Of a stretch of 32,548 bases of DNA, positions 1,381 through 22,441 are shown one piece after another. The notes beneath the pieces were generated by a model, which ran no database searches, was not told the origin of the DNA, and saw only the letters and a list, made by a program, of their open reading frames with translations. Position 1 is the first letter of the stretch. The number at the start of each line of letters is the position of its first letter. Source of the DNA: Flavobacteriales bacterium (GTDB lineage: Bacteria; Bacteroidota; Bacteroidia; Flavobacteriales_F; PHOS-HE28); the NCBI GenBank assembly GCA_020847755.1, contig JADLBK010000180.1, forward strand, positions 1 to 32,548, written 5' to 3'. The position numbers and the translations under genes were made by a program.

Positions 1381-4143
1381 ATGGCCCTGAAGCCGTCCCA
1401 TCGCATCCTCCTGCTCCTGCTCCTGTGCGCGATCCCCTTCGGAGGCCACGCTCAGGTGGTGCTCAACGAGGTGAGCGCCAGCAATCTGTCCACCTTCGCT
1501 GACAACAACGGCGAGTTCGAGGACTGGGTGGAGCTGTACAACACCACCGCCGCACCGGTGGACATCAGCGGCTGGCACCTCAGCGACAACCCGAACAACC
1601 CCACCAAGTGGGCCTTCCCGGTGGGGGCGCAGGTGCCGGCGAACGGCCGGCTGATGGTGTTCTGTTCGAGCCGCGACATGTTCACGCTGCCGCTGATCTT
1701 CCACACCAACTTCAAGCTCAGCCAGGGCCAGAACGAGTGGATCCTGCTGGCCGATGCGGGCGGCAACGTGCTGGACGACTTCCAGCTCTCGGACCGTACC
1801 AAGGAGAACCACAGCCGCGGCCGTACGACCGATGGCGCCGCCACCTGGTCGCTCTTCCAGACCCCCACGCCCAACGCGGCCAACGTCGGCGCCTCTGCGG
1901 ACTACGAGCCGAAGCCCCAGTTCAGCCTGCCCGCCGGTGTGTATGCCGGTGCACAGAGCGTGGCCTTGAGCTCTCCCTCCGGGGCCACCATCCGCTACAC
2001 CTTGGACGGCACCACGCCCACGGCCACCAGCACGCCCTATGCGGCCCCGCTGAACATCGCCGCCACCACCGTGGTGCGCGCCGCGTGCTTCAGCGCCACG
2101 CCCGGGGTCCCGCCCAGTTTCATCGAGACCAACACCTACTTCATCGGCGTCACCCACACGGTGGCCATCCTGAGCGTTGCGGGGGATGAGGTGGACGACC
2201 TGCTGCTGGGCAACGGCGGCCTGGAACCCGTCTCCTCCCTGGAGTACTTCGGCCCCAACGGGGTGCTGCGCGATGAAGCCGTGGGCACCTGCGACGAGCA
2301 CGGACAGGACAGTTGGGCCTACGACCAACGCGGCTTCGACTGGGTGACGCGCGACCAGTACGGCTACAACGACGCCATCCACTACCCGATCTTCCGCACC
2401 AAGGACCGCGATGAATACCAGCGCCTCATCATCAAGGCGGCCGCCGGGGACAACTACGAGTTCGGTCCCGGTCAGCCTGCGCACATCCGCGATGCGTATG
2501 TGCAGGCCCTCAGCCAGGTGGGCAACCTGCGCGTGGACGAACGCCGCTACGACCCCTGCGTGGTCTACATCCACGGCCAGTACGGGGGTGTGTATGACCT
2601 TCGTGAGAAGGTCGACGACTCGGATTTCACCCGGTACTACTACGACCAGGGCGAGTACGACATCCAGTTCATCAAGACCTGGGGCGGCACCTGGAGCGAA
2701 TACGGCGGAGCCCAGGCCCAGGCCGACTGGGATGCCCTGCGCACCTTCATCGCCACCAACAACATGGGCGACCCCACGGCCTTCGCCTACGTGGACAGTG
2801 TGTTCAACTGGAAGAGCCTGGTGGACTACTTCTGTCTGAACAGCTATACGGTGTGTGCGGACTGGCTCAATTGGAACACGGGCTGGTGGCGGGGGATGAA
2901 CCCCAACGGTGACCACAAGAAGTGGGGCTACATCCTGTGGGACATGGACGCCACCTTCGGGCACTACACCAACTTCACCGGCATCCCGGACCAGAGCCCG
3001 AACGCCGACCCCTGCACGGTGGAGGACCTGCCCGATCCAGGCGGACAGGGCCACACGGAGATCATCGAGAAGCTGATCCAGGAGAACCCCATGGTGCACG
3101 ACTACTACGTGAACCGCTACATCGACCTGGGGAACACCCTGTTCAGCTGCAACTTCATGATCCCCTTCCTGGACAGCCTGGTGGGCAATATCGCGCCCGA
3201 GATGCCCGCGCAGATCGCGCGTTGGGGTGGAAGCATGGCCGACTGGCAGAACAATGTGCAGGTGCTGCGCGACTACATCGAAACGCGATGCGTCACCATC
3301 CAGGATGGCTTGATCGATTGCTACGACCTGAGCGGTCCCTATGACGTGCAGTTCGATGTGGACCCGCCCCTGAGCGGCAGCATCCAGGTGAACTCGCAGG
3401 TGCTGCCCACTTATCCCTTCATCGGCACCTACTACGGTGGCATCACCACCACGTTGGCGCCGATCCCCGAACCGGGCTGGGCCTTCAGCCACTGGACCAT
3501 CCAGAACGACACCATCTGGCCCAGCCTCACCGACAGCCTGGTGACCCTCACCACCGACACCACGGACCGCATCGTGGCCCACTTCATCCCGCCCATCGCC
3601 TACAGCGTGATGCTGGACGTGGAGCCGCGCAACAGCGCCCGCATCGAGTTCGACGGGGTGCTGTATGATGCCTTCCCCACCGTGGTGCAGGTGCCCGAGG
3701 GCGTCGCCAAGCCCATCAAAGTGCTGCCCGCGCTCTACTACGACTTCCTCAACTGGAGCATCAAGAACAACTACCCGAGCCCGGCGGACACCACCCTCCC
3801 CGAGCTGAGCATCACCTTCTTCAGCCCGGACACGGTGGTGGCGCACCTGCAGCCGCAGGACTACGCGTACTGGATCCCCAACTCGTTCACCCCGAACAAT
3901 GACGGCATCAACGACGTGTGGCAGCCCTGGGGCAACGTGATCGACCTGGAGTCCTTCGACCTGAAGATCTTCGACCGCTGGGGCCAGCTCATGTTCCAGA
4001 GCAATGATCCCAACCTGCCCTGGGACGGCACCGGAGGCGGTGGCCAGATCGGCGTGGGGGTGTATGCCTACCGCGCGTTCGTGATCGAAGGCATCACCAA
4101 GGAACGCCACGAGCTGTTCGGCCACGTGACCGTGGTGCGCTGA
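1381..4143 (+). CDS. Secreted CotH-family protein with lamin-tail domain and T9SS type B sorting domain
   Basis: A 920-residue exported protein. Residues 1-25 are a signal peptide ending in GGHAQ. About 26-160 form a lamin-tail domain (VLNEVSASN...DWVELYN). About 178-255 resemble the chitobiase C-terminal/FN3-like domain (IRYTLDGTTPT). About 260-650 are a CotH kinase-like domain with YGGVYDLREKVD at 401-412 and the acidic motif YILWDMDATFGHY at 517-529, expected to hold the metal/ATP-binding aspartates. Two repeated modules of about 80 residues follow (653-735 and 740-822, each with W-x-I and VAH). Residues 829-920 are a gliding-motility-associated type B C-terminal domain (NSFTPNNDGINDVW, FDRWG, WDGT). 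CotH proteins are atypical kinases known from spore coats; the bacterial lamin-tail versions are mostly uncharacterised. The T9SS domain indicates export across the outer membrane. The gene stands alone between two terminators. Confidence 0.92.
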   Translation: MALKPSHRILLLLLLCAIPFGGHAQVVLNEVSASNLSTFADNNGEFEDWVELYNTTAAPVDISGWHLSDNPNNPTKWAFPVGAQVPANGRLMVFCSSRDMFTLPLIFHTNFKLSQGQNEWILLADAGGNVLDDFQLSDRTKENHSRGRTTDGAATWSLFQTPTPNAANVGASADYEPKPQFSLPAGVYAGAQSVALSSPSGATIRYTLDGTTPTATSTPYAAPLNIAATTVVRAACFSATPGVPPSFIETNTYFIGVTHTVAILSVAGDEVDDLLLGNGGLEPVSSLEYFGPNGVLRDEAVGTCDEHGQDSWAYDQRGFDWVTRDQYGYNDAIHYPIFRTKDRDEYQRLIIKAAAGDNYEFGPGQPAHIRDAYVQALSQVGNLRVDERRYDPCVVYIHGQYGGVYDLREKVDDSDFTRYYYDQGEYDIQFIKTWGGTWSEYGGAQAQADWDALRTFIATNNMGDPTAFAYVDSVFNWKSLVDYFCLNSYTVCADWLNWNTGWWRGMNPNGDHKKWGYILWDMDATFGHYTNFTGIPDQSPNADPCTVEDLPDPGGQGHTEIIEKLIQENPMVHDYYVNRYIDLGNTLFSCNFMIPFLDSLVGNIAPEMPAQIARWGGSMADWQNNVQVLRDYIETRCVTIQDGLIDCYDLSGPYDVQFDVDPPLSGSIQVNSQVLPTYPFIGTYYGGITTTLAPIPEPGWAFSHWTIQNDTIWPSLTDSLVTLTTDTTDRIVAHFIPPIAYSVMLDVEPRNSARIEFDGVLYDAFPTVVQVPEGVAKPIKVLPALYYDFLNWSIKNNYPSPADTTLPELSITFFSPDTVVAHLQPQDYAYWIPNSFTPNNDGINDVWQPWGNVIDLESFDLKIFDRWGQLMFQSNDPNLPWDGTGGGGQIGVGVYAYRAFVIEGITKERHELFGHVTVVR

Positions 4144-4283: not shown

Positions 4284-7200
4284 ATGCTCACAAGAACAAC
4301 CCTGATCGGTGCCGCACTCGCGGCCGGGATCCCCGCAACGGCGCAGACCGCCCGCTTGCAGGTGATCCACAACAGCGCGGACGCAGCAGCGTCCGTGGTG
4401 GACGTGTATGTGAACGGCAGCCTCCTCATCGATGACTTCGCCTTCCGCACCGCGTGGGGCTATAATGATGTGCCTGCCGGCGTGGACCTGCAGGTGGGGA
4501 TCGCCCCGGGCGGAAGCACCAGCGCTGCGGACACCATCCCCGGCCTGGGCGCCACCTACAACCTGCCCGATGGCGGCACCTTCGTGCTGGTGGCCAACGG
4601 CATCGTGAGCGGCTCGGGCTACAACCCGGCGCCGGCCTTCGACCTCTACGCCAATGGCGGTGAGGAGACCACCACCGCCGGCAATACGGGCGTGCTGGTG
4701 TTCCATGGGGCCACCGACGCCCCCGCCGTGGACGTGTTCGAGAGCGCTGTGCTCGGTGCCAACGCCGTGACCAACCTCGCCTACGGGGAGTTCGCGGGCT
4801 ACCTGAACCTGCCCACCGACGATTATGTGCTGGAGGTGCGTGCCGCCGGCGATCCCAACACGCTGGTGGCCTACAGCGCTCCGCTGCAGACCCTGGGCCT
4901 CGACGGGCTCAGCCTGGCCGTGGTGGCCAGTGGTTTCCTCGACCCCGCGCAGAACAGCAACGGTCCGGCCTTCGGTCTGTTCGCTGCGCCGCCCTTCACC
5001 GGACCCCTCGTGGAACTGCCCGTGTACACCGCGCCCGCAGCTCGTTTGCAGGTGATCCACAACAGCGCTGACGCCGCAGCCGCCGTGGTGGACGTGTACG
5101 TGAACGGCGCCCTGCTGATCGATGACTTCACCTTCCGCACCGCCTGGGGGTACAACGATGTGCCCGCCGGCGTGGACCTGCAGGTCGGCATCGCCCCCGG
5201 CACCAGCACCAGCGCGGCGGACACCATCCCCGGCCTGGGCGCCACCTACAACCTGCCCGACGGCGGCACCTTCATCCTGGTGGCCAACGGCATCGTGAGC
5301 GGAACCGGGTACAACCCCGCGCCGGCCTTCGAGCTGTATGCCAATGGCGGCACCGAGACCAGCGCTCCGGGTACGGCGAACGTGCTCGTGTTCCATGGGG
5401 CCACCGACGCCCCCGCTGTGGACGTGTTCGAGAGCGCCGTGCTCGGCGCCAATGCCGTGAGCAACCTGGCCTACGGTGAGTTCGCCGGCTATCTGAACCT
5501 GCCCACGGACGACTATGTGCTCGAGGTGCGCGCCGCCGGCGACCCCAACACGCTGGTGGCCTACAGCGCTCCGCTGCAGACCCTGGGTCTCGATGGCCTC
5601 GGCCTTGCGGTGGTGGCCAGCGGTTTCCTGGATCCTTCGCAGAACAGCAACGGCCCCGGCTTCGGCCTTTGGGCGGCGCTGCCTTCCGGTGGTGCCCTGG
5701 TGGAACTGCCCGTCTTCACCGCTCCGACCGCTCGCCTGCAGGTGATCCACAACAGCGCTGACGCCGCCGCCGCCGTGGTGGACGTGTACGTGAACGGCGC
5801 CCTGCTGATCGACGACTTCGGCTTCCGCACCGCGTGGGGCTTCGAGGACGTGCCCGCCGGTGTGGCCCTGCAGGTGGGTGTCGCCCCCGGCACCAGCACC
5901 AGCGCGGCGGACACCATCCCCGGGCTCGGAGCCACCTTCGTGCTGGCCGACGGCGAGCGCTATGTGCTGATCGCCAACGGCATCGTGAGCGGAACGGGTT
6001 ACAACCCCTCGCCGGCCTTCTCGCTGAACGCCTTCGCTCCCGCCCAGGAGACCGCCGCCACCACCGGCAACACGGACATCCTGGTGTTCCATGGCAGCAC
6101 GGACGCCCCGGTGGTCGACGTGTACGAGAGCGCTGTGCTGGAGGCCACGGCCGTGAATGACCTGGCCTATGGTTCCTTCGCCGGCTATCTGGCGCTGCCC
6201 ACCGCCGACTACACCATCCAGGTGCGCACCGCGGACAACAGCGCCATCGCCGCCGCGTTCAGTGCTCCGCTGCAGACCCTTTCCCTGCAGAACCTGGCCC
6301 TCACCGTGGTGGCCAGCGGCTTCCTCGACCCCGCGCAGAACAGCAACGGTCCGGCCTTCGGCCTCTGGGTGGCCCTGCCCACCGGTGGTGCCTTGGTGCA
6401 ACTGCCCGCCGCGCCGATCCCGACCGCCCGTGTGCAGGTGATCCACAACAGCGCTGATGCCGCCGCCTCCACCGTGGATGTGTGGCTGAACGACAGCCCG
6501 CTGATCGACGACTTCGGCTTCCGCACCGCCAGCCCCTTCGTGGATGTGCAGGCCGGCGTGGACCTGAACGTGGGTGTGGCCCCGGCCAACAGCACCGATC
6601 CGGCCGATGCCATCGCCACCTTCAGCTACAACCTGGAGGAGGGCGGCACCTACATCCTGGTGGCCAACGGCATCGTGAGCGGCACGGGCTACGATCCCGC
6701 CACGCCCTTCAACATCTACGTGTACACCCCAGCCCGCGAGACGGCCACCTCGGGTGCAGGCAACACCGACATCCTGGTGTTCCACGGCAGCACGGACGCC
6801 CCCACGGTGAACGTGAACGAGACCGCCGTGCTCGGCGGTGCCACCCTCATCAACGGCCTGTCCTACGGTGAGTTCAGCAACTACCTGGAGCCGCCGACCA
6901 ACGATTACGTGCTGGAGATCACCGCAGGGGGGACCCCGGTGGTGAGCTATCAGGCCCCGCTGGCCAGCCTTGGCCTGCAGGGTGATGCGATCACCGTGCT
7001 GGCCAGCGGCTTCCTGAACCCCGCGCAGAACAGCAACGGTCCGGCGTTCGGTCTCTGGGTGGCGCAGGCCACCGGTGGGGCGCTCGTCGAGCTGCCCATC
7101 TTCACGGGGGTGAACGAGAACGCAGGTGTCCTTGCCGGGACGATGCTGTGGCCGAACCCCGCCAACGACCTGCTGAACATCCAGGTGCCCGCCTTGGGCG

Positions 7201-7388
7201 ACCGCAGCCTGGAGGCTGAACTGCTGGATGCCAGCGGCCGCATCGTCCGTGCCCTGGGCAACAGCGCCCTGGTGCGCGGCAACGACCGTGTGACGCTTGC
7301 AACCGGCGACCTGGCCGCGGGCACCTATGTGCTTCGTCTGCGCAGTCAGGACAACAGCGTGGCCCTGCCGGTGAGCATCGCCCGCTAA
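4284..7388 (+). CDS. Secreted protein of four tandem DUF4397 units with T9SS type A sorting domain
   Basis: A 1034-residue exported protein. Residues 1-21 form a signal peptide (ending IPATAQ). Four units of about 230 residues follow: 23-252, 253-482, 483-714 and 715 to about 944. Each unit has two DUF4397-like halves, the first beginning A-R-(L/V)-QVIHNSADAAA..VDV and the second (L)VFHG(A/S)TDAP.V(D/N)V. The first half ends in VANGIVSG (IANGIVSG in unit 3) and the second in (V/L)ASGFL(D/N)P.QNSNGP. Residues about 953-1034 are a T9SS type A sorting domain (LWPNPANDLLNI...LAAGTYVLRL). DUF4397 is an immunoglobulin-like extracellular domain of unknown role. Predicted location is the cell surface or medium, perhaps as an adhesin or structural stalk (inference). 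The gene stands alone between hairpins. Confidence 0.93.
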   Translation: MLTRTTLIGAALAAGIPATAQTARLQVIHNSADAAASVVDVYVNGSLLIDDFAFRTAWGYNDVPAGVDLQVGIAPGGSTSAADTIPGLGATYNLPDGGTFVLVANGIVSGSGYNPAPAFDLYANGGEETTTAGNTGVLVFHGATDAPAVDVFESAVLGANAVTNLAYGEFAGYLNLPTDDYVLEVRAAGDPNTLVAYSAPLQTLGLDGLSLAVVASGFLDPAQNSNGPAFGLFAAPPFTGPLVELPVYTAPAARLQVIHNSADAAAAVVDVYVNGALLIDDFTFRTAWGYNDVPAGVDLQVGIAPGTSTSAADTIPGLGATYNLPDGGTFILVANGIVSGTGYNPAPAFELYANGGTETSAPGTANVLVFHGATDAPAVDVFESAVLGANAVSNLAYGEFAGYLNLPTDDYVLEVRAAGDPNTLVAYSAPLQTLGLDGLGLAVVASGFLDPSQNSNGPGFGLWAALPSGGALVELPVFTAPTARLQVIHNSADAAAAVVDVYVNGALLIDDFGFRTAWGFEDVPAGVALQVGVAPGTSTSAADTIPGLGATFVLADGERYVLIANGIVSGTGYNPSPAFSLNAFAPAQETAATTGNTDILVFHGSTDAPVVDVYESAVLEATAVNDLAYGSFAGYLALPTADYTIQVRTADNSAIAAAFSAPLQTLSLQNLALTVVASGFLDPAQNSNGPAFGLWVALPTGGALVQLPAAPIPTARVQVIHNSADAAASTVDVWLNDSPLIDDFGFRTASPFVDVQAGVDLNVGVAPANSTDPADAIATFSYNLEEGGTYILVANGIVSGTGYDPATPFNIYVYTPARETATSGAGNTDILVFHGSTDAPTVNVNETAVLGGATLINGLSYGEFSNYLEPPTNDYVLEITAGGTPVVSYQAPLASLGLQGDAITVLASGFLNPAQNSNGPAFGLWVAQATGGALVELPIFTGVNENAGVLAGTMLWPNPANDLLNIQVPALGDRSLEAELLDASGRIVRALGNSALVRGNDRVTLATGDLAAGTYVLRLRSQDNSVALPVSIAR
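4350..5039 (+). repeat. DUF4397 repeat unit 1 (690 bp)
   Basis: First of four in-frame tandem units. Compared with unit 2 it differs at about 25 of 230 residues by hand count, while many codons differ synonymously, so the copies are not fresh duplicates. Confidence 0.88.
5040..5729 (+). repeat. DUF4397 repeat unit 2 (690 bp)
   Basis: Second unit, same length as unit 1 and the closest to it in protein sequence. Long identical stretches cover the second half (from HGATDAP to LQTLGLDGL, with one substitution). Confidence 0.88.
5730..6425 (+). repeat. DUF4397 repeat unit 3 (696 bp)
   Basis: Third unit. It is two residues longer and more divergent than units 1 and 2, mainly in the linker around FAPAQETAATTGN and in the second half. 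Confidence 0.87.
6426..7115 (+). repeat. DUF4397 repeat unit 4 (about 690 bp)
   Basis: Fourth and most divergent unit. It keeps VIHNSADAAA, VANGIVSGTGY, VFHGSTDAP and QNSNGPAFGLW and leads directly into the sorting domain. Confidence 0.85.
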
Positions 7389-17176: not shown

Positions 17177-18949
17177 TCAGTTGAACGCGACGCGGCGCAC
17201 GGCACGACCTTCCGCGAACTCGAGGGTGAGGAAGTACGCCCCTCCGTCCAGTTCGCCGCGCTGAAGGATGATGACATCGGCGTTCACCGTGCTGTTGCGG
17301 ACCAGGCGACCATCCGGTGTGTGCAGGGTATAGCTCAACACCTTGCCCGCAGGGCTGCTGATGCGCACCGCATCGATGGCCGGGTTGGGGGCGATCACGA
17401 GAGCAGCTGCCGCAGCAGGTTCGGCGATGCCGACCGGCTGTCCCACGCAGTCGCAATTGGCGGTCCAAGCGTCGTTGATGGTGTTCGCGTCGCCGTCGTC
17501 GCAGGGCTGACCCGGCTGGTCGGGGCCGTCGATCACGCCCAGGCAATCAGGCGTGCCCAGCGCGCAGGGGCCGAGCTGCAGGGCGCAGACGATGCGCGGG
17601 TTCATGTAGCCCATCACCGTGTCCAGGTAAGCGCGACCCTTGGCCCCGCTCATGTCGGGGTTGCTGGCGAGGCTGGCCTGGTGGGTGGTGATGCCCAGTC
17701 CCGGGATCACCGTGGTGGCTGCCGGGCTGTTGGGGTCCCACCACTGCCAGGGGCTCGCTTCGTCGCTGGCCGGTGGGGTCCAACGCGGGCGCACCACAGG
17801 GAAGAGCCCTTCCGCGCCGGAGGCGATGGTGACCCCGTCGATCGTCTGGCCATAGAGCGATCGCGCACGGGCCGTGAACGGATCGTTGGTCAGGTTGGCG
17901 AAGCTGGTCTGGTTGCCCAAGCCGTTCACCCAGGGGATGAAGTAGTTGCTGCCGGGCACGTCCACGACCGGTCCGCCGGTGGTCGGCACGATCACGATGC
18001 CGTACGTGAAGGGTGCGAACGGGTCGAACACGGTGTGGAAGGCCACCATCGGCGCATCACCGGCCTCAGCCCAGGTGGTGTCGGCGAGCGCTCCGCCCAT
18101 GTTCACGCAGAAGTGCGTCTCATGATCGAAGCCGTTCGACCGATAGAGCGTGAGCTGACCGTTCAGGCCGGCCAGGTTGCCGACCGCATTGGTGTCGACA
18201 TAGCTGACGTTCGGGTTGAAGGGGTCGGGCCGGAACTTCTCCACGAAGAGCTCGCTGCCCTTGTCCAGCGTGGTGTGCGCCAGGGCGATGTAGCCACCGG
18301 TGCCTTCACCGAGCACGATGATCTTGTCCGGGTCGATGCCGTAGGTGTTGGCCGCGGCCGCTTCTTCCTTGTGCGTGCGCACGCACTGGCGCACGTCGTG
18401 GATCGCCCGGTAGATGGCGTTGAGCAACTGCCCGCGACGCTCCTCCTCGGTGGCGGCCAGGGGGTTCCAGCCCAGCCGATAGCTCATGCTCACCGCCACA
18501 TAGCCGCGGCGCGCCATGCGCTTGCACACCTCCACAGCGCAGCTGTCCGTGCGCGTACCCACCGGGCTGCCGTTCTGCGGGGGAGGCAGCGCGTTGCCGG
18601 TGTGGATGTACAGCACCATCGGCCGCTCGGTGACGGCATCCACGTTCTGATCGGGTTCGTAGATGTCCATCCGCAGCTCGCGCACCTTCACGGCCGTGCT
18701 ACCGTCCGTGGGGTCGAAGAAGGGAGCCGGGATGGGCTGCTGGGTGCTCACCAGTGTCTGCAGTTGGGTGACCTCTGCGGGCACGTTGGGGCTGGCCAGG
18801 TTGCTGGTGAGGAAGTCGATGTTGGTACCGAAGGGCACGTTCGGTGTGATGACCACCTGTCCGTCGGTGAACACCTCGTCGATGTAGCGCTGCTGGGCCA
18901 CTGCCAACGCGGGCAGTGCGAGCAGAAGCAAGGGTAGGGCTCGTTTCAT
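17177..18949 (-). CDS. Secreted esterase-like alpha/beta-hydrolase, nucleophile Ser replaced by Gly, T9SS type A domain
   Basis: A 590-residue exported protein. Residues 1-19 are a signal peptide (LALPALAVAQ). About 85-430 resemble a carboxylesterase/alpha-beta-hydrolase domain: LRMDIYEP, MVLYIHTGN (oxyanion region, normally HGGG), RMARRGYVAVSMSYRLGW, AIYRAIHDVRQCVRTH, and the elbow LGEGTGGYIAL at 213-223. The elbow is normally G-x-S-x-G; here the nucleophile position 216 is Gly (codon 18304-18302, GGC), so classical esterase chemistry is not expected. About 480-500 contain the DGDANTINDAWTANCDC motif common before sorting domains in this phylum. The last ~85 residues are a T9SS type A domain (VIAPNPAIDAVRIS ... 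GGAYFLTL). It is monocistronic: a promoter box lies upstream and a hairpin follows. An esterase-derived surface binding protein is one reading; an enzyme with a shifted nucleophile (Thr217) is another. Confidence 0.85.
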   Translation of the reverse strand: MKRALPLLLLALPALAVAQQRYIDEVFTDGQVVITPNVPFGTNIDFLTSNLASPNVPAEVTQLQTLVSTQQPIPAPFFDPTDGSTAVKVRELRMDIYEPDQNVDAVTERPMVLYIHTGNALPPPQNGSPVGTRTDSCAVEVCKRMARRGYVAVSMSYRLGWNPLAATEEERRGQLLNAIYRAIHDVRQCVRTHKEEAAAANTYGIDPDKIIVLGEGTGGYIALAHTTLDKGSELFVEKFRPDPFNPNVSYVDTNAVGNLAGLNGQLTLYRSNGFDHETHFCVNMGGALADTTWAEAGDAPMVAFHTVFDPFAPFTYGIVIVPTTGGPVVDVPGSNYFIPWVNGLGNQTSFANLTNDPFTARARSLYGQTIDGVTIASGAEGLFPVVRPRWTPPASDEASPWQWWDPNSPAATTVIPGLGITTHQASLASNPDMSGAKGRAYLDTVMGYMNPRIVCALQLGPCALGTPDCLGVIDGPDQPGQPCDDGDANTINDAWTANCDCVGQPVGIAEPAAAAALVIAPNPAIDAVRISSPAGKVLSYTLHTPDGRLVRNSTVNADVIILQRGELDGGAYFLTLEFAEGRAVRRVAFN

Positions 18950-18972
18950 GGATCCTGGGTTTGATCAGGTTC

Positions 18973-18980
18973 CGAAGATA
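18973..18980 (-). promoter_or_regulatory. Putative -7 box of the esterase-like gene
   Basis: On the minus strand TATCTTCG, 23 bases before the start at 18949; differs from TAnnTTTG at one position. Confidence 0.45.
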
Positions 18981-19018
18981 GGGATGGACCTGTGTAGCTC
19001 CGGAGGATGGGAGCGGAT

Positions 19019-19038
19019 GTATGTATGGCCATACATAC
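19019..19038. repeat. Palindrome copy 1 (perfect, 20 bp)
   Basis: GTATGTATGGCCATACATAC, fully self-complementary. It ends 39 bases upstream (minus strand) of the -7 box of the esterase-like gene, so it could act as an operator for that gene. Confidence 0.9.
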
Positions 19039-19212
19039 GTCGAGTGGGCAACCGCAACAACCCGCGCCCTCGTTCGGAGCTTGCAGCTGTTCGAATGAGA
19101 TCTCACCACCTCCCCGCCGGCGCATTGCTATTCTGCGTGTGGACGCGCCTGGGCCGGCGTCGGGCCCATGGTGGCTCGTAGCGCTTCAGCCGGTGAAGGA
19201 CCGTTCATGACA

Positions 19213-19230
19213 TATGTATGGCCATACATA
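19213..19230. repeat. Palindrome copy 2 (perfect, 18 bp)
   Basis: TATGTATGGCCATACATA, fully self-complementary; the flanks CA and CG break the symmetry. Confidence 0.9.
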
Positions 19231-19325
19231 CGTTGACGGATGACCTGGAACCGGCTGACCCAGGTCGGAACCCCGCTATTCGTGGGGATTGGTGCGTGTC
19301 AGGCCTGCGCGACGACGGTTGTCGA

Positions 19326-19349
19326 ACATATGTATGGCCATACATATGT
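19326..19349. repeat. Palindrome copy 3 (perfect, 24 bp)
   Basis: The longest copy: the 18-bp core at 19329-19346 is extended by three further symmetrical base pairs on each side (ACA...TGT), creating CATATG at both ends. Confidence 0.9.
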
Positions 19350-19443
19350 CCAGGGCTCCAGAGCAGCCTATCCGACAATATGCGCTCCATTGCACGCGGC
19401 TTTCAGTGGTTCGAGCAGCCTTGATGCACTGGGCCGCGAAGTA

Positions 19444-19457
19444 TGTATGGCCATACA
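19444..19457. repeat. Palindrome copy 4 (perfect core, 14 bp)
   Basis: TGTATGGCCATACA is intact. The left flank GTA still matches copy 1 but the right flank has drifted (ACT). It lies 36 bases downstream of the receptor stop on the minus strand. Confidence 0.85.
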
Positions 19458-19492
19458 ACTGTTCGGGAGCGGCCCGAAGCCCCCCGACCCCT

Positions 19493-22441
19493 TCACCGCC
19501 GGTCCAGCTCGTAGATCAGCTGCACGTACCCCAACCGGCCCACCGCCGGTCCACCGTAGACCAGGTACACATCGTTGGTCCACATCCGTTCCAGTCGCTC
19601 GTCATCCGGAACGCGCTCGTCGAACAAGGGCACGACCCCGAAGAGGTTGCTGCAGCCCACCTTCACGGTCAGTCCCGGCTTCGGAAACTTCACGTTCACC
19701 TGCGCGTCCACCATGTCGTAGCTCGGTATGGCGCCGGTGAACTGGGGTGAGCCTTCGAAGGTGAAGCCTTCCACGAATTTGTAGTTGATGCCGAAGCCCA
19801 GGTCACGCCGGTCCGTCCACGGGATCCGCAGGTCATGACCCGTGAAGCCCACGTTGAACTTGTTCAGCGGGGTGTTGAAGGCCGGGATGATCGGATCGTC
19901 CTCCCCGGCGATCAAGCGGTTGTAGCTGTAGTTCACACTGTAGGTCATCCGCTTGCGGTAGTAGTTCACCCCGAGGTTGCCGCCCAGTGTGCGCACCGTG
20001 CTGTTGCTGTTCGCCGCCACGCGGTACACCTGGAGCTCCAGCGGAAAGCCGGTCACCTGATCGAAGCTCCCATCGATGCCGATGAGGTAGCCGATGAAGT
20101 CCGTGTACCAGCTCGTGTAGCCGCTCGCGTCCACGTAGAACTTCTCGTTCAGGGTGCCCCGGTAGCCGGCCTCCACGGTGAGCACCTTTTCCGGCCTGAT
20201 GCGGTCCACGTTGAAGTACTCCAGCTTGGACAGGCCCTCCAGCAGGGTCGGTGAGCTGCGGTAGTCGTTGAAGCTCTCGATCGTGATCAGGCTGTCGCGC
20301 CCTTCCTCGAACTGGCCGTCGATGTTGCCCAGCAGGATGGCTCTTCCCACATTGTAATAGAGGTACTGGTCGGCCAGCGTCGGATTGCGCACGCCGCGGC
20401 TCACGCTCACCCGGAGCACATGGTCGGCGTTCGGCGTGTACACCGCGCTCAGCGCAGGCGAGACCTGGGGCTCGAAGTTCTGGTTCTTGTCCACCCGCAC
20501 CGTCAGGGCCAGCCGCAGCTTGTCCTGCATGAGCTTCTTCTCCAGGCCCGCGTAGCCGCCCGCTTCCCAGTTGGTGATCACGATGTCCGCCGTGTCCTTG
20601 AAGATGGTGCCCGCACTGTTGGGCCGGTACAACCGTCCGTTGCCCCCCACGGTGATCTCCGCGAACCGCGGCTTGAAGCGGTATTCCCCCATGGCGTGGT
20701 ACAGCGCCGACCGGTCGAAGAAGAGCGAGCCCCCTTCGGTGAAGCGCCGCGAGCGGATCTCGTCCAGCTTGTCGTTGAAGCGGTCGGTGCCCACCAGGTA
20801 TGCCGGGTCCAGCTCGGTGTTGTCCGTGCGGTCGATGCTGTCGGCGACCAGCTGATGGTAGCCGCTGAACAGCGCGGTATTGTCGGCAACGAACTGCGTG
20901 AGGTAGTCGTCATAGGCCTCCTGTGTGGTGATGCCTTGCGCGATGGCCTCGCTCGGCGTGAGGTAGCCGGGTTGCGTGGCGTTCAGCAGCGGCTTGATCC
21001 AGGTCTCCCATAGCGTGAAGTAGCGGATGTTCCACTCGGTGGTGACCCCGCTCGCCTCCTGCAGGCGAAGACCGGTGGTGTAGATGTCGTAGGTGTCCCC
21101 GGCATCCTCATGCGTCACATAGCTCCGGAAGAACCAGCGTCCTTCCTGGCGGAGCTCGAGGCGGTGCTGGAAGAACTGCACACCTTCCAGACGGTACCGG
21201 TTGTCGCCCTGATACACCGTGCTCCCGCGGCTGTAGTTGGTCGCGACCTGCACTTCCACGCTGTCGGTGATCCGGTAATGCAGGCTCAGACCCGCCTTCA
21301 GGTTGTTGGTGCCATAGTCCACCAGGTCCGTTTCGCGATAGCCGGGACGCAGGAAGAGCCCGAGGCCCGGGTACTGCCGTCGACTGAAGAGGGATACGCT
21401 GAAGTCGTTGTTCGCCGTCACCCACTCATCGCCGTAGCTGTTCACCGCGTCGTAGCGACCCGGGTTGTCCGCTCCCGTCGGGCTGTTGCTGGTGGGGTCG
21501 TGGTTCTCGGCGTACCAGTCCTCCGCGCGCATGGCGAACAGGTTCAGCTTGTACGCGAAGCGTTCGCGGCCTTCCTTGTTCTTGAACACCTGGGCCCAGC
21601 GCACGGCCCCTTCCAGCAGGTCGCGTTCCCCGGCCTTTGCGCTCACGCTCAGTCCCGGAAAGGCCCACGGGCTCTTCGTGGTCATGTTGATCACCCCGTT
21701 GAAGGCGCCCGGACCGTAGAACGCGCTGCTCGCCCCCGCGATCGCGTCCACCTTCATCACGTCCAGGTCACTTGCCCCCAGGAAGTTGCCCAGGCTGAAG
21801 TTGAGGCCCGGGCTCTGGTTGTCCACGCCGTCGATCAGCTGCAGGCTGCGCACCGGGCTGGTGCTGTTGAAGCCGCGCGTGTTGATCACCTTGAAGCCGA
21901 AGCTCGCGGCCGTCATGTCCACGCCTTTCAACGTGCCCAGGCTCTCGTAGAAGTCGCCGCTCGGTGCCTCCCGGATGGCGATGATGTCCATGCTCTCCAC
22001 CGTGAGCGGGGCCTGCTTCTGCTTCTCGCTGATCCTGCTGCCCACCACCTCGGCCTCCTGCAACAGCACCTGGTCCGCGCTCAACTTGAACTTCAGCTCC
22101 TGGTCGGGGCTCTTCACCTCCACCTCCAGGTCGGTGAAGCCCACGTAGCTGATCACCAGCACGTATGGCGGCAGCTCGTTCACCGGCAGCTCGAACCGGC
22201 CGTCGAGGTCCGTCTGCGTCACCGCCTTCGTGCCCTTCAGCGCCACGGTGGCACCGATGAGCGTTTCACCGCTGCCGGCGTCGCTCACCACACCGCGCAG
22301 CTTGTACTGCTGGGCCAGCGTGGTCAACGGAAGCAGCAACGCCAGTAACAGGATCGGGCGGACCAGCGGCGCGTTCGCGCGCGGCGGGGGCAACGGTCTG
22401 TGTTCCGTTGACCGGTCGAAGCGGTGTCGGGGGAGGCGCAT
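19493..22441 (-). CDS. TonB-dependent receptor with carboxypeptidase-regulatory N-terminal domain
   Basis: A 982-residue outer-membrane receptor. The signal peptide runs to about residue 44 (LLLALLLPLTTLAQ) after an unusually long N-terminal region. About 46-125 are a CarboxypepD_reg-like domain (KLRGVVSDAGSGETLIGATV ... DGRFELPV). About 142-260 are the plug (VINTRGFNS, LQLIDGVDNQSPG, VDAIAGASSAFYGPGAFNGVINM). The remainder is a large beta-barrel with many aromatic-rich strands (RVSVSRGVRNPTLADQYLYY, VEAGYRGTLNEKFYVDASGY) ending GRLGYVQLIYELDRR. It takes up a ligand using TonB energy; the ligand is unknown. It is not followed by a SusD-like lipoprotein, so it is not a typical SusCD pair. The ATG at 22441 fits the -7-like box at 22463-22456; a TTG six codons upstream is less likely. 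Confidence 0.93.
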   Translation of the reverse strand: MRLPRHRFDRSTEHRPLPPPRANAPLVRPILLLALLLPLTTLAQQYKLRGVVSDAGSGETLIGATVALKGTKAVTQTDLDGRFELPVNELPPYVLVISYVGFTDLEVEVKSPDQELKFKLSADQVLLQEAEVVGSRISEKQKQAPLTVESMDIIAIREAPSGDFYESLGTLKGVDMTAASFGFKVINTRGFNSTSPVRSLQLIDGVDNQSPGLNFSLGNFLGASDLDVMKVDAIAGASSAFYGPGAFNGVINMTTKSPWAFPGLSVSAKAGERDLLEGAVRWAQVFKNKEGRERFAYKLNLFAMRAEDWYAENHDPTSNSPTGADNPGRYDAVNSYGDEWVTANNDFSVSLFSRRQYPGLGLFLRPGYRETDLVDYGTNNLKAGLSLHYRITDSVEVQVATNYSRGSTVYQGDNRYRLEGVQFFQHRLELRQEGRWFFRSYVTHEDAGDTYDIYTTGLRLQEASGVTTEWNIRYFTLWETWIKPLLNATQPGYLTPSEAIAQGITTQEAYDDYLTQFVADNTALFSGYHQLVADSIDRTDNTELDPAYLVGTDRFNDKLDEIRSRRFTEGGSLFFDRSALYHAMGEYRFKPRFAEITVGGNGRLYRPNSAGTIFKDTADIVITNWEAGGYAGLEKKLMQDKLRLALTVRVDKNQNFEPQVSPALSAVYTPNADHVLRVSVSRGVRNPTLADQYLYYNVGRAILLGNIDGQFEEGRDSLITIESFNDYRSSPTLLEGLSKLEYFNVDRIRPEKVLTVEAGYRGTLNEKFYVDASGYTSWYTDFIGYLIGIDGSFDQVTGFPLELQVYRVAANSNSTVRTLGGNLGVNYYRKRMTYSVNYSYNRLIAGEDDPIIPAFNTPLNKFNVGFTGHDLRIPWTDRRDLGFGINYKFVEGFTFEGSPQFTGAIPSYDMVDAQVNVKFPKPGLTVKVGCSNLFGVVPLFDERVPDDERLERMWTNDVYLVYGGPAVGRLGYVQLIYELDRR

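Follow-up and report, generated by a model that had tools for sequence, protein, structure and literature searches.

The nearest known logic to the palindrome arrays described here is that of the REPIN-RAYT systems, in which REP sequences are accompanied by a REP-associated tyrosine transposase (PMC3116915, PMC2817692). As in those systems, a single-copy gene is flanked by its own palindromes, further copies are dispersed between genes, and the site and the protein diversify together. Two defining features of REPIN-RAYT were looked for and are absent. The bracketed gene encodes a MarR winged-helix regulator rather than a Y1 transposase, with no Y1 tyrosine transposase or RAYT among the array-flanking genes; and whereas REP sequences are imperfect palindromes that act as single-stranded hairpins, each site here is a perfect dyad of double-stranded DNA whose two half-sites are independent. 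They also lie ~70-200 bp apart and number tens rather than hundreds. The linked protein resembles MarR, SlyA and MosR in its fold and size, and its putative operator would resemble theirs in being palindromic and in lying, as for autoregulation, upstream of its own start codon. Unlike the known MarR regulators, it is associated with putative operators that are multiplied in satellite-like arrays, at about twelve loci away from promoters, and the site, of ~26 bp, is highly constrained.

Eukaryotic alpha-satellite DNA consists of diverged tandem monomers that share a conserved CENP-B box. The analogy is a partial one: diverged monomers with one conserved, putatively protein-binding box are found here too, and two arrays (L288 and L141) have higher-order units, but the arrays are bacterial and tiny and the protein is unrelated. 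ParB-parS, Noc-NBS and SlmA (PMC4331003) likewise involve short palindromes that are strongly conserved and scattered over the chromosome. The palindromes here are clustered and unlike parS in sequence, their gene lies itself in or beside an array, and no Noc or ParB paralogue was found in the genomes. The arrays do not match MITEs, which have a conserved interior between terminal inverted repeats, and target duplications that are short: here the spacers are mostly unrelated between arrays in G000 and G009, though some G034 loci share them, and the duplications, where seen, are 60-99 bp. The sites are not at promoters of functionally related genes as in a promoter-operator regulon. A search of open PMC papers found no description of the exact 14-mer site or of such a system.

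The array and its conservation

The window, the whole 32,548-nucleotide stretch that was analysed, contains the exact 14-bp core TGTATGGCCATACA at 19022, 19215, 19331 and 19444, inside a gene-free gap of 543 bp (18950-19492) bounded by two minus-strand genes (Table 1). The initial annotation had described four perfect palindromes of 20, 18, 24 and 14 bp with an identical core in this gap, and its positions and spacings (193, 116 and 113 bp) are exact. Its statements that the window has no further copy and that the intervening sequences are unlike each other were also borne out: no other match occurs at up to two mismatches, the single three-mismatch match (at 17843) compares with 0.5 matches at up to three mismatches in a shuffled window, and comparison of the spacers confirmed their mutual unlikeness. 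The exact 14-mer is expected 0.00003 times per window. Elsewhere in the window, positions 4284-7388 encode an unrelated repeat protein; it is large, contains four similar domains of ~240 aa and ends in a sorting-like C-terminus.

Table 1. Features of the palindrome array and its surroundings, in window positions.
Feature	Position	Strand	Remarks
Palindromic site 1	19016..19041	.	26-bp dyad; perfect over 20 bp, 19019-19038
Palindromic site 2	19209..19234	.	Perfect over 18 bp, 19213-19230
Palindromic site 3	19325..19350	.	Perfect over 24 bp, 19326-19349
Palindromic site 4	19438..19463	.	Perfect 14-bp core, 19444-19457; right half degenerate beyond core
Spacer 1	19042..19208	.	~72% identity to G009 orthologue; not alignable with G041; no RNA structure
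Spacer 2	19235..19324	.	88% identity to G009; no significant RNA structure
Spacer 3	19351..19437	.	86% identity to G009; no significant RNA structure
Alpha/beta-hydrolase/esterase-like protein	17177..18949	-	Flanking gene; Pfam BD-FAE; context only, outside the system
TonB-dependent receptor	19493..22441	-	Flanking gene; context only

A search of the window's own genome (G000, 3.67 Mb) with up to one mismatch returned 31 exact copies of the core and six with one change, which is always the same T-to-C in one half-site; a reversed control pattern returned none. The annotation had allowed that the core might occur at random frequency genome-wide, and this is contradicted: chance does not explain the palindromes, since only 0.003 exact copies are expected. 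The 37 copies are grouped in 13 loci, each with 2-6 sites and all intergenic, contigs C74 and C181 being counted as the two ends of one locus. Spacers are mostly unrelated between arrays in G000 and G009.

Nor did the arrays prove to be missing from the homologous gap of close relatives, the other outcome that the annotation had envisaged as unfavourable. In G009 and G041, whose esterases are 97% and 93% identical to that of G000, arrays occupy the same gaps; one G009 locus is cut by a contig end, and across the 12-13 loci of the three species no array has been gained or lost save one extra in G041. The 16-bp cores of orthologous arrays differ at 14 of 960 positions (1.5%) in the three species, compared with 32% at the outer half-site positions and 23-38% at 4-fold sites (G000/G009 4-fold identity ~62-77%); the cores are thus ~20-fold better conserved than either 4-fold sites or flanks. 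Spacers are 67-88% identical to those of G009, and the window spacers cannot be aligned with G041. Special conservation of spacing was considered and is not claimed: the palindrome-to-palindrome length shifts by a median of 1 bp between species, but seven control gaps are equally stable, and a comparison of these lengths with outer segments (p 0.04) uses hand-picked data and is suggestive only.

Copy number per locus differs between species (3 versus 6, 6 versus 2, 4 versus 5), and repeated units that are near-identical or of higher order are present in some arrays; together these indicate that arrays grow by tandem duplication. Two arrays show higher-order repeats that are reminiscent of satellite DNA: in L288 (G033:C1:1914700-1915410) and L141 (G000:C175:41888-42760) every third spacer is a repeat, at 92-99% and 93% identity, respectively. 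In L210, L223 and L258 the perfect symmetry of some palindromes reaches 38-46 bp, beyond the 26-bp consensus.

A MarR-family protein linked to the palindromes

The full site is a 26-bp dyad composed of the 13-bp half-site RACRTATGYATGG followed by CCATRCATAYGTY. At the variable positions d10, d11 and d13 there is no left-right covariation in G000 and at most a weak excess over all genomes. The letters of the two half-sites therefore vary largely independently, as is expected of half-sites for two protein subunits and not of a hairpin, and a hairpin or cruciform model was rejected for want of clear covariation.

The decisive lead to a protein came from an array other than that of the window, with a MarR-family gene in or beside it. 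In G021 the 494 bp that separate two palindromes hold a gene for a protein of the MarR family. Its homologue in G000 abuts the C125 array (145 aa, C125:4050-4487, minus strand, locus L140). The marR gene adjoins an array in G000, G009 and G041 and lies between palindromes in G021, G010, G044, G042, G030, G034, G025, G033 and G024. The linked protein is a standard MarR winged-helix protein with helical dimerisation ends (Pfam MarR, 7.6e-12; AlphaFold pLDDT 89.4), and its closest structural neighbours are MarR, SlyA and MosR proteins, among them the DNA complexes SlyA-DNA (3q5f, TM 0.81), MosR-DNA (4fx4) and MarR-DNA (5h3r). In 12 of 14 genomes a dyad precedes the marR ATG by 19-27 bp, and a further palindrome is often found 3' of the stop; in G000 this distance is 24 bp, with a Bacteroidota-like -7 box just downstream of the dyad. 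At the marR loci of G032 and G023 the palindromes are downstream, with none at -24. A dyad before the start and a palindrome after the stop is the arrangement expected of autoregulation, and marR is putatively repressed by its own product through the upstream dyad.

Homologues and palindromes were surveyed in 45 related genomes. Close MarR homologues are confined to array-bearing genomes and G034, and more distant ones are found in G025, G032, G033, G023, G024 and G016. When all palindrome classes are counted, the 13 genomes with arrays all encode the MarR and 30 of the 32 others do not (13/0/2/30; Fisher 1.4e-9, a value uncorrected for phylogeny that is only indicative because it overstates the independence of these related genomes). 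G006 has one two-site array (C19:36156-36343, L239) and no detected MarR homologue at 99% completeness; the array is possibly a relic that outlasted loss of the MarR.

The palindromes have changed with the protein. Several of these marR genes are accompanied by perfect palindromes of other sequence: ATGCATGGCCATGCAT in G030, ATTCATGGCCATGAAT in G034, TTGCATGGCCATGCAA in G025, G032, G033 and G023, and TCATTTGCTTGTACAAGCAAATGA in G024. Two of them, TTGCATGGCCATGCAA and ATTCATGGCCATGAAT, stand beside divergent MarRs and predicted that arrays of the same palindromes would be present elsewhere in those genomes; both predictions held. TTGCATGGCCATGCAA occurs 18 times in G033, 14 in G025, 10 in G023 and 4 in G032, mostly in arrays and also at loci away from marR, compared with 0-2 times in other genomes; of ATTCATGGCCATGAAT there are 24 copies in G034, with 0-1 in each of the others. 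Palindrome class follows the MarR tree with six changes, against a minimum of five and a shuffled mean of 10. The same orthologous gap in G030 and G033 holds arrays of different palindromes, each matching the resident MarR, and three of the eight sites in the G033 array are hybrid. Related MarRs with no perfect or near-perfect palindrome nearby are found in G034 (G034b, L275), G021 (G021b, L276) and G016 (G016a/b; L270 and L277), and are possibly ancestral or de-coupled forms. The suggestion in the annotation of a dimeric-protein site under selection is supported by the independent half-sites, the conservation of the cores and the MarR that tracks the site across genomes.

Origin and role of the dispersed arrays

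The site, its distribution and conservation, its linkage and co-occurrence with marR and the co-variation of protein and site have been established by computation. From these observations the sites are, with high likelihood, operators of the cognate MarR that have been multiplied into dispersed arrays and are putatively bound by it. In our model, a homodimer of one MarR-family protein would bind the two 13-bp half-sites of each palindrome, and the dyad at the promoter of marR, itself embedded in or beside one array, would confer autoregulation. The 12 other arrays of G000, including that of the window, would represent the same operator clustered at non-promoter positions. Tandem duplication of units of palindrome plus spacer would have produced the arrays, which would then have spread to new intergenic sites and remained in place there, with selection maintaining the site and leaving the spacers free to drift. 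The two marR loci that lack a dyad at -24 (G032 and G023), the related MarRs that have no palindromes and the G006 array that has no MarR count against this model. We consider it probable that MarR homodimer sites, an autoregulated marR and selected dispersed arrays together provide the best explanation overall.

Arrays do spread, as is indicated by flanking duplications, an empty site, shared units and the class difference between G030 and G033. A direct repeat of 91-99 bp, made up of overlapping 3' ends of genes, flanks the G000 array L138 (copies at 5752-5845 and 6524-6618) and its orthologue in G041, L208, and at the matching empty site in G005 the two genes overlap with no array between them. 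The marR-containing locus of G021, L226, is flanked by a repeat of 61 bp (about 2547-2608 and 3547-3608). Several G034 loci share spacer sequence and a unit of roughly 285 bp. The 60-99 bp duplications at two array insertions keep the convergent gene ends intact and are far longer than usual transposon target duplications.

The main remaining rival is a selfish origin, in which the palindromes are REP/REPIN- or MITE-like repeats of no benefit to the cell, mobilised by some transposase or recombinase, and MarR is their cargo or a domesticated controller. The flanking duplications with the clean empty site in G005, the shared spacers in G034, the proliferation of the arrays of one palindrome only with their MarR, and the resemblance of one palindrome-bracketed gene with dispersed copies to RAYT-REPIN (PMC3116915) are all consistent with such an origin. 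The stability of the loci in three species, the strong constraint on the sites and the missing hairpin covariation argue against it, as do the flanking gene families, which include no transposase except one incidental HTH_Tnp_1. The annotation had offered a local REP/MITE-like expansion as one reading: dispersal between loci and a bracketed gene agree with it, and the tens rather than hundreds of copies and the lack of a tracking transposase in the checked flanks do not. We view selfish repeats as possible but rather unlikely; a REP-like origin would be compatible with later use by the cell.

A conventional regulon, in which the window array controls the esterase, the TonB receptor or both and other arrays control their own neighbours, would be in keeping with MarR proteins in general, which usually act as promoter-bound regulators. 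The window array is upstream of the esterase start, and some others are between divergent genes. Against this, the G000 arrays adjoin functionally unrelated housekeeping genes (IF-2, FKBP, RlmI-like, thiolase, DHO dehydrogenase, YjeF and others) in divergent, co-directional or convergent orientation, two of them between convergent 3' ends. Dispersed palindromes are ~50-120 bp from gene starts and not at -24 as at marR, and G005 and G006 retain both window flanking genes with a short gap and no array. Since identical sites adjoin unrelated genes whatever their orientation, an operator for the receptor or the esterase, as had been suggested, finds no support, and we regard a regulon as improbable.

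Segregation or nucleoid-occlusion sites of the ParB-parS or Noc type would also be clustered short perfect palindromes with irregular spacing, and orthologues of the array-flanking genes lie in the dnaA half of the closed genome G002. However, the tracking protein is a MarR, and nearly all genomes, with or without arrays, encode one HTH_ParB protein over the cut-off, so that a parS-like reading finds no support in the protein and ParB paralogues are largely refuted as the site-binding protein. Nothing beyond a weak parS match was found near the ParB loci. Origin-centred placement, striking in G002, is not claimed, because synteny with the array genomes is broken (the distance of cox_L143 from dnaA is 81 kb in G041 and 1 Mb in G002, so the G002 order is not transferable) and G037 is not dnaA-centred. 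Sites of this type are very improbable. A structured RNA or CRISPR-like array with functional spacers, suggested by repeats that are parted by unique spacers, is scarcely credible and refuted as far as tested: spacer folding has a mean z of ~0 on both strands, the spacers are ~70-200 bp long, orthologous and drifting between species at about the rate of 4-fold sites, in contrast to the uniform short spacers and cas genes of CRISPR, no Cas genes are among the array-flanking genes, and viral contigs carry palindromes only as three isolated single matches, which also led us to reject a viral origin of the sites.

Returning to selected MarR operator arrays, ordinary gene control is unlikely because the arrays lack a promoter position and their neighbours have no function in common, whereas sites that are strongly conserved between freely drifting spacers would fit protein-bound nucleoprotein clusters or decoys. 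We therefore favour a role of this kind, in titration or in the architecture of the chromosome, and not the control of nearby promoters, although this is the least certain part of the model and is reached by exclusion. There is perhaps an even chance that MarR and its satellite-like operator arrays, spread to many non-promoter loci and kept there by selection as nucleoprotein clusters, constitute a self-contained two-part Bacteroidota system whose site sequence switches genome-wide with the protein; the different palindromes at orthologous G030 and G033 loci suggest such a joint switch.

Our analysis puts forward MarR as the candidate binder of these enigmatic sites, and a search for small HTH genes that lie between palindromes offers a route to such arrays elsewhere. 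If the model is right, the operator of a very common kind of regulator has become a DNA family that is satellite-like, dispersed and under selection, without any transposase seen so far. The specificity classes of protein and site, at least four within one genus, would then form a natural series for the joint change of a protein and dozens of its sites, and the arrays would be a tractable model of protein-bound repeats in bacterial chromosomes, whether they serve titration, architecture or selfishness.
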